Below are positions 54,044 through 59,512 of a stretch of DNA of 64,000 nt, one piece after another. The DNA is from Nitrospirota bacterium. GTDB lineage: Bacteria; Nitrospirota; Thermodesulfovibrionia; UBA6902. Every line of letters begins with the position of its first letter. Positions within the stretch are counted from its first letter, which is position 1. The notes under the pieces are model-generated. The model saw only the letters and a list, made by a program, of their open reading frames with translations, had not been told where the DNA came from and made no database searches. The stretch lies in assembly GCA_016213945.1 (NCBI GenBank), contig JACQZF010000016.1:1-64000 (forward strand), written 5' to 3'. Position numbers and translations under genes: made by a program.

Positions 54044-54979
54044 ATGGACAAACTGCGTCAGAGTGTAACAAGCTTCATATCTCTTGAAAACCTCATCACT
54101 GACGGCAATGCTCAATTGTTCCATAAAGTCGTTTCAGGGATGCATGACCTCTGCTTTCATATCCTTGAAGCTGAAAGGAACGGCAGGTCTCATTCAGAGA
54201 TAGAAGAAACCATAAAGCCCGCGCGTGACATTCACAGCCGCTCAGTTTTTGTTAAACGTATGCAGGACTGGCCCAGAAAATATCCAGGGGATTTTGAGAC
54301 CGTGGAATACATATGTAATCTTGAGAACAGATCAACGTACGGGAAAGTTGAATATTACATTGAAGAATATGCCCTGAACAGTGCGATGGCGCAGCAGCAC
54401 AGAAATAAAGTGCAGCGCCAGTCAGAGATCATTCTTGACGCGCTTTTAAACGGCGGGGCGGGACGGAAGATATTGTCGGTGGGCTGCGGGGGGAGCTGGG
54501 ATTTTTTGAAAATTAAAAAATACATCCATGATGTCCGGTGCGAAATAGTCCTGCATGACATCGACAGCGACGCACTGGAATTATCGAGGGAAAGGCTCAA
54601 TGATCTCAGCGCGGGGATACACCTGATTAAAGGCAACTTCCTGCAATCTCTGAGGACCATAGAAATGTCAGGGCCCTTTGACGTAATCCTCGCGGGCGGC
54701 CTGTTTGATTATTTGTCGGACAAGCACATTTCTTTTTTCCTGAAACACGCCTTCAATAAAATGTTAAATCAAAACGGCATCCTGTTTTTTACAAATATCA
54801 AAAAAGGCAATCCCTACAAAGTCTGGCAGGAATATCTGGCGGACTGGAAGCTGATCTACAGGGGTAAAGATGAGATCATCGGCCTTCTGACCTCCGCGGG
54901 TTTTTCAACCGGCGATTTCAAAATAGAGAAAGATGAAACAGGACTGACCTTCCTGGTGACAGCGCAAAAACCGGGCTGA
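54044..54979 (+). CDS. SAM-dependent methyltransferase, class I
   Basis: 311 residues. A helical N-terminal domain (about 1-125) precedes a Rossmann domain with ILSVGCGGSWDFLKI near residue 142 as SAM loop, LHDIDSDALELSRERL as acidic loop and DVILAGGLFDYL. The N-terminal domain resembles that of methyltransferases that modify small molecules or lipids, but the substrate is unknown. AGGTATTTT before the ATG is a modest ribosome site. Confidence 0.75.
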   Translation: MDKLRQSVTSFISLENLITDGNAQLFHKVVSGMHDLCFHILEAERNGRSHSEIEETIKPARDIHSRSVFVKRMQDWPRKYPGDFETVEYICNLENRSTYGKVEYYIEEYALNSAMAQQHRNKVQRQSEIILDALLNGGAGRKILSVGCGGSWDFLKIKKYIHDVRCEIVLHDIDSDALELSRERLNDLSAGIHLIKGNFLQSLRTIEMSGPFDVILAGGLFDYLSDKHISFFLKHAFNKMLNQNGILFFTNIKKGNPYKVWQEYLADWKLIYRGKDEIIGLLTSAGFSTGDFKIEKDETGLTFLVTAQKPG

Positions 54980-55941: not shown

Positions 55942-56370
55942 ATGAGGACAAGCATTTTGACAGTTATCGTTTTTAGTCTGCTGACTGTTTTCTGGATTGA
56001 TAGCGCCGGGGCCTTGCATAACCTGTTTAAGGAAATGGACAAGAACCAGGACGGGGTAATCGAGCGCGGCGAATTTTATGAGGACATAAAAAAGGACGCC
56101 TTTAATAAATCAGATGCCAATAAAGACGAGGCCGTTTCGCCGGAAGAGTGGACCACCATGGAGGGCATCGATAATAAGCAGGAGGTGTTCAGGTCCGTTG
56201 ACACGAACGCTGACAAAAGGATCAGTTTTCCCGAGTTTTCAAATTACGCTGATAAATATTCAAATATTGTTGAAGCTTTCATGGTCATGGACAAAAACAA
56301 GGACGGCGCCCTGTCCCCTGATGAAGTCTCGGTCCGTCCTCTTTTCAGGTGGATAACAATCCGCTACTAA
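55942..56370 (+). CDS. Secreted EF-hand protein
   Basis: 142 residues. Signal peptide (about 1-24, ending AGA) and four EF-hand-type calcium loops: DKNQDGVIERGE, DANKDEAVSPEE, DTNADKRISFPE and DKNKDGALSPDE. The second and third loops have weaker position-6 residues (E or K instead of G). A calcium-binding exported protein of unknown role. Ribosome site AAGGTGGAG lies just upstream. The selenoprotein gene follows 105 bases later in the same direction. Confidence 0.88.
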   Translation: MRTSILTVIVFSLLTVFWIDSAGALHNLFKEMDKNQDGVIERGEFYEDIKKDAFNKSDANKDEAVSPEEWTTMEGIDNKQEVFRSVDTNADKRISFPEFSNYADKYSNIVEAFMVMDKNKDGALSPDEVSVRPLFRWITIRY

Positions 56371-56475
56371 ACTGAAATACCGGCTGCGGAAGTCATTGAA
56401 AAATCCGCACCAATCTGCAAAAATCAGCGGCGACTGCCGTTTTAAGGTTTAACGAACAATAGAATGGAGGACGGG

Positions 56476-57237
56476 ATGAGAAAATTTCTGGTAGCTGGAT
56501 TTTTTCTCACTGGTATTTTATTTCTAAATACCGTAGAGGCCATGCAGACAAAAGTGATCGTCAGGATAAAATCAAAGGACGCGAAATTCGTCGGCACTTC
56601 AATGGGCGGTGCGCTCATTACGATCAGGGACGTTGAAACCGGGAAGGTCCTTGCAGAGGGACTGACATCCGGCGGAACGGGCGACACAAATAAGATCATG
56701 AATGAACCCGTGCGGCGTTTTGCGCGATTGACCGATGACGCAACTGCAAAGTTTGAAACAACTGTTGATATTGCGGAACCGGCGTTAGTCACGATTGAGG
56801 CGGAAGCGCCGATGTCAAGAAAGCCTGATACTGTGAAAAGCTCAACACAGGTGTGGCTGATTCCAGGGAAGGACATGCCCGGAGACGGGATAGTCGTGGA
56901 AGTTCCGGGGTTCTCAGTTACCGCAGTTGTTCCAGAAGAAATAAAGTTGAGCGGCAATAAAGCCGCCGTTACTGTGCAGGCTACTATCGTAATGATATGA
57001 GGATGCCATTTGACCCCGGGCGGGTTATGGGATTCAAATAAATACGAAATCAAAGCTATTGTTAAATACAACGGAGAGATCATCAACACCATCCCTCTCA
57101 ACTTTGCAGGCACGCCGAGTCTTTTCAAGGGTGAATTGAACGTCACAAAAAGCGGCCCATACGAAGTGACCGTGTACGCGTATGATCCTCAAACCGGGAA
57201 TACAGGCGTGGATAAAAAGACAGTGAAGGTTTTATAA
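56476..57237 (+). CDS. Secreted selenoprotein with UGC redox motif (in-frame UGA)
   Basis: 253 residues when TGA at 56998-57000 (codon 175) is read as Sec. The ATG at 56476 follows GGAGG; a signal peptide ends near ..NTVEA. Beta-rich segments flank the motif MI-U-GC-HLTPGGLWD, in which Sec175 and C177 would form a selenenylsulfide pair. The frame stays open for 79 more codons (NKYEIKAIVKYNGE, GPYEVTVYAYDP) to TAA at 57235, and this part looks like an immunoglobulin-like beta sandwich continuous with the N-terminal half. From memory, homologues have CGC at this place. An annotator ignoring Sec would split it in two. Function unknown, probably thiol redox in the periplasm. Confidence 0.8.
57006..57030 (+). 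promoter_or_regulatory. Candidate SECIS hairpin of the UGC selenoprotein
   Basis: CCAT (57006-57009) pairs with ATGG (57027-57030) and ACCC (57013-57016) with GGGT (57022-57025), leaving an asymmetric internal loop with unpaired T residues and the apical loop CGGGC. The loop starts 17 bases after the UGA and has G in its first two positions, within the bacterial SECIS range as I recall it. Confidence 0.5.
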
Positions 57238-57394
57238 AGACACCGCACCTCTCTGACTGTCAAAACCCATCCGAAAATAAATAAGGTCGTGTTAAAAGGA
57301 ACGAAGCTTAAGGAGAGAAAAGAAGGCCACGCGGAGTGGCAGTTGATGGAGGATGAAGTAGAAAGATAAACTGCGCTTGTTTAAGGTCAGACAA

Positions 57395-59512
57395 TCACCC
57401 TGCCTTCACCTTCCACGTGGTCCCGTCTTTTTTGTCCTCAAGGATGATGCCTTTGGCCTCAAGCTCTTTTCTGATCGTGTCAGCCTTTGCCCAGTCTTTC
57501 TGTTTCCTCGCCTCCTGCCGTTCGGCGATTTTCAGAAGCAGGGACTCCTCTGAAAACTCAAGCTTCTTCACCTTCATCAGGGACCTGTACCATTCCTCAG
57601 GCGTCTTGTTGAATATGTTCATGACGCCGCCGATTTCGGCAAGTAGCTCTCCGGTTTTAATCACAAGCTCTTTTGCCTTCTGCCCGGAAGGTTTTGAATC
57701 AAGGAACCTGTTTGCTTCCCTTATGAGCTCGAAGATAAATCCCAGCGCAGAGGCCGTGTTGAAATCGTCATTCATCGTGTGATGGAATTTATCTTTAAAA
57801 GCAGAAAGCAGTTTTTCAAGGTCCGCGGAAGTCCCCGGCTTCTCCGCGGCCCCTGCTGTTTCAAGAAAATCCTTGATCCTCGTAACTGTAGAGTAATACC
57901 TGTCAATGGAAAGCTCGGACTCGGTCAACTGCGCGTCGGAGAATTCTATCGGGCTTCTGTAATGAGTTGAGAGCAGAAAATATCTTACGACCTCAGGCTC
58001 GTATTTTTCAAGGATATCTTTTATGGTGAAAAAATTTCCAAGGGACTTGGACATCTTCTCTTTTGCCACTGTGATAAAGCCGTTGTGCATCCAGTACTTC
58101 ACAAAAGGTTTGCCGGTATACGCCTCGCTCTGCGCAATCTCATTCTCATGGTGCGGAAATATAAGGTCAGCCCCGCCTCCGTGGATGTCAAAGCTCTCTC
58201 CTAAATATTTTGACGACATGGCGGTGCATTCTATGTGCCATCCGGGCCTGCCCTTACCCCACGGGCTTTCCCACCAGGGCTCGCCTTCCTTGGAAGATTT
58301 CCACAGGGCAAAATCAAGAGGGCTCCTCTTTCTCTCATCAACCTCAACACGCGCACCGGACATGAGGTCGTCAACGTTCTTTTTTGAAAGTTTGCCGTAC
58401 CCGGAAAATTTGCTGACCTCAAAGTAAACATCTCCATTTACAGGATACGCATAGCCTTTATCAATGAGTCCCTTTATCGTCTCGATCATTTCCTTTATGT
58501 GGTCTGTGGCATTGGGCTCAAGGTCCGCCCTGCTCACGCCAAGCATATTCATGTCCCTGTAATATTCCTCGGTGTATTTTTTCGCGATCACGTCGTATGA
58601 GACATTCTCCTTTGCGGCACGGTTGATGATTTTGTCGTCGATGTCGGTGATGTTCCTGACGTGAGTGACCTTCAGTCCCTTGTATCTCAGATATCGCTTT
58701 ATAATGTCAAAGACAATCGCACTGCGCGCGTGACCCAGGTGGCATACGTCGTATGCCGTTATCCCGCACACGTACATCCTGACCTGCTCTGGTACCAGAG
58801 GGACAAAATCCTCTTTCTTCCCGCTCATCGTGTTGTAAACCTTTATTGTCTCGCCTTTGCCTTCCAATCCGCTGATTCTCCTTTCAAGTTCAGAAATATA
58901 ATTTTTTATCTCTTCAAATCTCTCATCAAGAGGATCGGGCAGGTGCACCTGATCGAGCATTTCCACCAGCCCATCGTTATAAATCTTCACTACCTTCTTT
59001 TTTATCACCCTGCCAGGCACACCGACTACAATGGAATTGTCAGGCACGGAATGAAGCACTACTGAATTTGCGCCTATCTTCACGTTGTCTCCTATCGTGA
59101 TCGCGCCGAGGATCTTGGTCCCTGCGCCGACAACTATGTTGTTGCCGAGTGTCGGATGACGCTTGCCTTTTTCCTTGCCTGTTCCACCCAGCGTCACTCC
59201 CTGGTAGAGAAGGACGTTCTCCCCGATTTCCGCTGTCTCTCCGATTACAACCCCCATGCCGTGGTCAATGAAAAATCCTTTTTTTATCTTTGCGGCAGGG
59301 TGTATCTCGATGCCAGTGAGGAACCGCGCTAATTGAGATAAAAACCGCGGCAGCACCGGCACGCCGAGCTTCCACAGTCTGTGGTTCACCCGGTAGAGGA
59401 ATATTGCATGAAATCCCGAGTAAGAAAGAATGACCTCCAGCCTGCTCCTTGCAGCAGGGTCCATCTTGAAAACAGTCCTGAAATCATGCCTTACGTCACT
59501 CCAAAAACTCAT
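57395..59512 (-). CDS. Fused serine O-acetyltransferase and cysteinyl-tRNA synthetase
   Basis: 705 residues in one uninterrupted frame. Residues 1-225 are CysE: a helical N-terminus, then left-handed beta-helix hexapeptides ([55 protein letters not shown]). Residues 226-705 are Cys[20 protein letters not shown] with the HIGH-type HLGH and a zinc cysteine, [23 protein letters not shown] and KMSKS. CysE makes O-acetylserine, the cysteine precursor; CysS charges tRNA-Cys. In many bacteria the genes are neighbours; here they are one protein, presumably channelling or coordinating supply and use of cysteine. Confidence 0.93.

Follow-up and report, generated by a model that had tools for sequence, protein, structure and literature searches.

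A 2026 review catalogues 119 families and subfamilies of prokaryotic selenoproteins; most of the characterised members have thioredoxin-like folds, and the entries with a UGC motif are DUF1573 and TlpA-like (PMC13188914). A redox-active cysteine pair on an Ig-like fold has been described for the periplasmic protein CsgC, whose invariant CxC motif lies at the junction of the B-C loop with strand C and has a potential of -139 mV, the value for the tripeptide CGC being -167 mV; CsgC is more stable once oxidised (PMC3173608). Here, we describe a gene that almost certainly encodes a selenoprotein with a U-G-C site, located in the window, i.e. the whole stretch of 64,000 nucleotides that was analysed. 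The reading frame runs from ATG 56476 through TGA 56998-57000 to TAA 57235-57237. Counted from this ATG, the TGA is codon 175 and is followed by 78 sense codons and the TAA; a further in-frame ATG at 56464 is a possible start but less likely than the one at 56476. The in-frame TGA, the unbroken frame behind it and a hairpin loop 17 nt downstream had been pointed out in an earlier note and were all confirmed. The features of the gene are:

56476-57237, + strand: predicted selenoprotein gene, 253 residues with the UGA read as Sec175; the alignment with homologues starts at the ATG of 56476
56476-56544, + strand: signal-peptide-like N-terminus MRKFLVAGFFLTGILFLNTVEA, read from the sequence; the model has a helix at residues 2-15, then a strand
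56545-56874, + strand: first predicted Ig-like beta domain, about residues 24-133 (AlphaFold model, mean pLDDT 91.8)
56875-57234, + strand: second predicted Ig-like beta domain, residues 134-253 (AlphaFold model), with the U-G-C site in the loop that joins its second long strand to the third
56998-57000, + strand: in-frame UGA, predicted Sec175; 19 non-redundant Sec forms share the position of this TGA codon, and 12 other homologues have Cys there
57004-57006, + strand: Cys177, the C of UGC and predicted partner of Sec175; present in 28 of 28 Sec and Cys forms in alignment A1
57011-57027, + strand: SECIS-like hairpin with stem UGACCC/GGGUUA and loop CGGGC (57017-57021), the loop starting 17 nt after the UGA

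The residue context of Sec175 is IVMI-U-GC-HLTPGG-LWD, and the C-terminus of the family in alignment A1 ends ...GNTGVDKKTVKVL, without Cys.

Homologues were collected by three routes. Among 61 relatives, the genome of the window included, 18 loci in 16 genomes contain one in-frame stop each, which is always TGA. Searches of the phylum and the class added two Sec forms (L038, L040) and five Cys forms (L039, L086, L087, L088, L089), and a scan of GTDB genome contigs yielded further Cys forms in Flagellimonas/Allomuricauda, a Deltaproteobacterium, KSB1 and an Alphaproteobacterium. In all 19 non-redundant Sec-form genes, which include that of the window and belong to one class of Nitrospirota, the TGA occupies the identical codon, and this number of copies ruled out a sequencing error or a pseudogene. 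Position 175 is Cys in 12 of 12 aligned Cys homologues and likewise in copies on sphingomonad plasmids. The homologues with C175 and a conserved C177 that the earlier note had predicted do therefore exist; the finding it had named as fatal, homologues that end at residue 175 or are continued by a separate downstream gene, did not turn up among the homologues read, as all Cys forms are single proteins fused across this position. Under the standard code the UGA is formally a stop, giving a protein of 174 residues next to a separate or decayed gene. This reading is refuted in practice by the comparative evidence: besides the fusion of all Cys homologues, the part downstream of the UGA is conserved and includes the later strands of one domain, and the hairpin behind it is conserved at the codon level (see below), leaving a true stop very improbable. 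Slimmer still is the chance that the UGA is reassigned, e.g. to Trp, or read through without Sec: the homologues have Cys and never Trp at 175, other genes of the window stop at TGA (e.g. at 54977 and, on the minus strand, at 57397), and the full Sec machinery is present.

U/C175 and C177 are the sole invariant Cys/Sec residues of the Sec and Cys forms, and in nearly all forms a Met precedes the pair. In homologues from family f29 of the same phylum, with about 33% identity, both Sec/Cys175 and Cys177 are gone. There, the site reads TLSG, then S, A or N, then ...HGDWDSR, and G176, G183, W185 and D186 are kept. Since the two residues were lost together in f29, it is suggested that they act together. 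These homologues without Sec or Cys (L041-L065) come from about 55 sampled genomes of f29; at three wider f29 loci (L083-L085), the homologue lies after a gene reading as methionyl-tRNA synthetase. The gene occurs patchily, in 2 of 10 genomes of the genus and 23 of 230 of the class, and a search of phages gave no homologue of the selenoprotein. The residue directly before position 175 (56995-56997 in the window) also differs between the forms. It is Ile or Leu in 19 of 19 Sec forms, with the codon ATA in 17, and Met in 12 of 12 aligned Cys forms, including L088, an apparent reversion from Sec. It may be that an AUG immediately before the UGA is disfavoured.

The 19 non-redundant Sec forms were aligned by codon, and each column with a conserved residue was scored for use of a single codon as compared to pooled codon usage. 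The six most constrained of 94 scorable columns were the one directly before the TGA (codon -1, ATA) and the run from +5 to +9. The codons of this run, ACC CCG GGC GGG TTA, are exactly the hairpin named in the earlier note. For five columns named beforehand to fall within the top six, a simple rank calculation, which ignores shared ancestry (affecting all columns alike), gives p of about 1e-7. The ten Cys forms examined displayed no comparable constraint over the hairpin codons. RNAalifold predicted a stem of six pairs and the loop CGGGC, and in the window sequence an imperfect longer stem extends to about 57035. One Sec form, L040, has exchanged Thr for Met and Leu for Met within this segment; its hairpin still forms, with the register shifted and GGGC as the loop. 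When the free energy was compared to that of synonymous codon shuffles, the hairpin was not significant in single sequences (fractions 0.07-0.46), and the case for it as a SECIS element is one of codon conservation across species, not of single-sequence stability. As known for bacterial SECIS elements, the hairpin has a G among the first loop bases, lies shortly after the UGA and appears to be under selection.

The genome of the window encodes its own machinery for selenocysteine. A tRNA-Sec was found at 73.9 bits, above the cut-off, SelB (360.7 bits) and SelA (625.8 bits) lie on one contig, and SelD (328.7 bits; G000:C91:8229-9143) has one in-frame TGA and is probably itself a selenoprotein. 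SelA, SelB, SelC and SelD, the components expected of a bacterial selenoprotein producer, are thus all present, and because selA, selB, selC and a predicted Sec-coded selD occur together, a working Sec pathway is indicated. The earlier note had come to the same conclusion from two in-frame UGAs in the window. That argument is not needed, and a rough scan of the window revealed no other UGA as convincing as the one at 56998-57000. SelA was above the cut-off in 14 of 17 further genomes with a Sec form. Among the three below it (G011, G012 and G046), two have a strong tRNA-Sec, and G011, 91% complete, has neither selA nor tRNA-Sec above the cut-off. Since selA was also detected in four of five tested Cys-form genomes of the class, Sec is not forced by the presence of the machinery.

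A maximum-likelihood tree requires three changes of the Sec label, all three forced by well-supported branches, indicating a minimum of three exchanges between Sec and Cys in the family. Because the deeper order of the tree is poorly resolved, a direction can be assigned with some confidence for L088 alone. This Cys form keeps ACC CCG GGC GGG, and TTA is changed to ATA, which breaks the stem. The degraded hairpin would be a clear case of a relic of Sec ancestry, and on its account the change in L088 is read as a recent one from Sec to Cys.

AlphaFold with the family alignment gave a model with a mean pLDDT of 91.8 (93.2 for the second domain alone), in which both domains are nearly all beta and Ig-like. 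Together with the signal-peptide-like start, the model bears out the earlier description as a secreted beta-rich protein. In the numbering of the second domain, the U-G-C lies after strand 29-40 and before strand 58-65, i.e. in the B-C loop, and the strands from the third long one onward are encoded downstream of the UGA. A Foldseek search with the whole protein returned generic Ig/FN3 matches only (TM of about 0.2-0.35); with the second domain, superoxide reductase, SoxY chains and the copper protein CrdA were obtained at TM of about 0.5. By the model, these matches say that the second domain is Ig-like and point to no specific family.

The selenoprotein matched nothing in Pfam above chance and nothing in NCBIfam or, by sequence, in the PDB, and none of the 119 catalogued families and subfamilies fits the protein (PMC13188914), which agrees with the earlier view of an undescribed family. 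Identity with GOS_A, a known selenoprotein without a model, is unlikely as judged by its description alone, which names no redox motif (PMC2398784). Like the window family, DUF1573 (PF07610) has Sec in a UGC motif that immediately follows a beta strand, the domain being small and secreted, and Sec-containing DUF1573 proteins occur in the same order as the genome of the window (L105, L106). The DUF1573 domain we take to be Ig-like. The UGA-coded DUF1573 proteins of these two loci (L105:1273-2115 and L106:1156-1869) have, beyond this domain, a cytochrome-c-like part in which CxxCH motifs occur. Membership of the window family in DUF1573 was rejected: Pfam scans of family members gave no PF07610 match at E up to 1, and a profile-profile comparison gave a probability of 2% that covered the CGC motif only, with no homology beyond it. 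UGC selenoproteins of the TlpA/Prx-like kind share the motif but have a thioredoxin fold, whereas the window protein has neither a match to AhpC-TSA/Redoxin nor a thioredoxin fold in its all-beta Ig-like model. CsgC resembles the window protein in being a periplasmic Ig-like domain with a cysteine pair at the B-C loop, fold and position in the latter being taken from the model. It has a single domain and a curli role, as against two domains and Sec in the window protein; there is no sequence match between them, and CsgC is absent among the 50 best Foldseek matches listed. The likeness to CsgC and DUF1573 is one of analogy and does not make the family a member of either. The best reading is that the gene represents a new family of secreted selenoproteins absent from current lists.

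No conserved operon partners of the Sec form were found, and the Sec-form genes stand alone. The only recurring neighbours are, upstream, an EF-hand gene shared by two species of the genus and, downstream, a small ORF present in some genomes. In the window, the upstream gene (55942-56370, + strand) encodes a secreted-looking protein with four EF-hand matches. It adjoins the selenoprotein gene also in G004 (L066) and is absent there in the other relatives examined. Immediately downstream, at about 57256-57369 on the + strand, is a remnant of a small gene (TVKTHPKINKVVLKGTKLKERKEGHAEWQLMEDEVER, then a stop), which is intact (about 80-100 aa, no Pfam match) after the homologue in L066, L068, L081 and L082. 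It is followed by a convergent ORF of 705 aa (57395-59512, - strand) that, judging from its sequence, looks like a fusion of serine acetyltransferase and cysteinyl-tRNA synthetase.

Neighbours with a connection to sulfur or disulfides belong to the Cys homologues, several of which are distant. On a sphingomonad plasmid, the Cys homologue, annotated like the other plasmid copies as a hypothetical protein, lies in an island with an SQR-like oxidoreductase, a rhodanese, RND efflux, a BigR-like regulator, a Tll0287-like protein, TlpA, bd oxidase, CydDC, a peroxiredoxin and TrxC. Another sphingomonad copy follows, at a distance of 2 bases, a gene whose annotation as disulfide bond formation protein B is weak by profile (19.8 bits vs a cut-off of 138 bits), and it has TauE/SafE nearby; a third has a YeiH-type transporter in its vicinity. 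The copy in an alphaproteobacterial MAG adjoins TauE and a Blh-like persulfide dioxygenase, which matches the dioxygenase part of Blh at 377 bits, below the model cut-off, and in which the remaining half of Blh is missing. A gene for a c554-like multihaem cytochrome overlaps the Cys gene in two genomes of the class, one of which has a DsrE-like gene downstream; as close orthologues occur in only three Cys genomes, this cytochrome was rejected as a general partner. Overall, the neighbourhoods of the Cys homologues lean towards thiol/disulfide or inorganic-sulfur chemistry.

The U-G-C followed by HLTPGG had earlier been taken for a thiol redox site. The motif is present, and a redox role is something that we infer: by analogy, the U175/C177 pair is probably a thiol/selenol redox site, and it looks like a periplasmic one of a kind rare outside thioredoxin folds. 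By the comparative evidence, UGA175 is almost certainly read as selenocysteine through SelA, SelB and tRNA-Sec of the same genome, directed by the hairpin just downstream. We propose that the protein, once exported, adopts a fold of two Ig-like domains. The B-C loop of the second one would expose Sec175 and Cys177 as a pair that reversibly forms a selenenylsulfide. This pair would exchange electrons with a thiol, a disulfide or a persulfide of the cell envelope, in a manner comparable to the CxC of CsgC or, in DsbD, to the cysteine pair of the Ig-like domain at the N-terminus. To this explanation as a whole, a secreted Sec protein with two Ig-like domains and a reversible U175/C177 redox pair, we assign a probability of roughly 0.6.

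Two other roles for the pair have to be weighed. The U-G-C could be a binding site for a soft metal, e.g. Cu(I) or Hg, or could carry sulfane sulfur, instead of acting as a thiol/disulfide exchanger. The nearly constant Met before what would be a soft ligand pair fits such a site, as do the ArsR/SmtB regulators and RND efflux near the sphingomonad homologues, with a heavy-metal P-type ATPase on one plasmid, and the SoxY, superoxide reductase and CrdA matches of the second domain. Yet no conserved His or further Cys is available to complete the ligands, and the lack of a conserved His also sets the family apart from superoxide reductase with its conserved His4-Cys iron ligands. SoxY and SoxZ chains do resemble the second domain (Foldseek E about 2e-4 to 1e-3), but TM-scores of about 0.5 are generic for Ig-like folds, and the family lacks the C-terminal GGCGG arm of SoxY, its reactive pair lying in an inter-strand loop. 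We regard this role as rather unlikely. Even less probable is a purely structural pair, a selenenylsulfide that would stabilise a surface protein without catalysis, as might be imagined for an Ig-like, secreted and often stand-alone protein given that CsgC gains stability when oxidised (PMC3173608). The repeated exchange of Sec and Cys fits a tuning of reactivity instead. Moreover, Sec is costly and is rarely retained for a structural role. We therefore favour the reversible redox pair. Taken further, the protein might be a selenium-dependent periplasmic redox or sulfane-sulfur protein built on an Ig fold, with a catalytic Sec outside the thioredoxin world and at least three Sec/Cys switches, a possibility that we put forward tentatively.

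Annotation by the standard code would end the Sec forms at residue 174 and lose most of the second domain. With the UGA read as Sec, one family would be added to the 119 catalogued families and subfamilies of prokaryotic selenoproteins (PMC13188914). A Sec residue in an Ig-like domain, together with natural Cys versions in Flavobacteriaceae, sphingomonads and others, would provide ready Sec/Cys pairs for testing the benefit of selenium.
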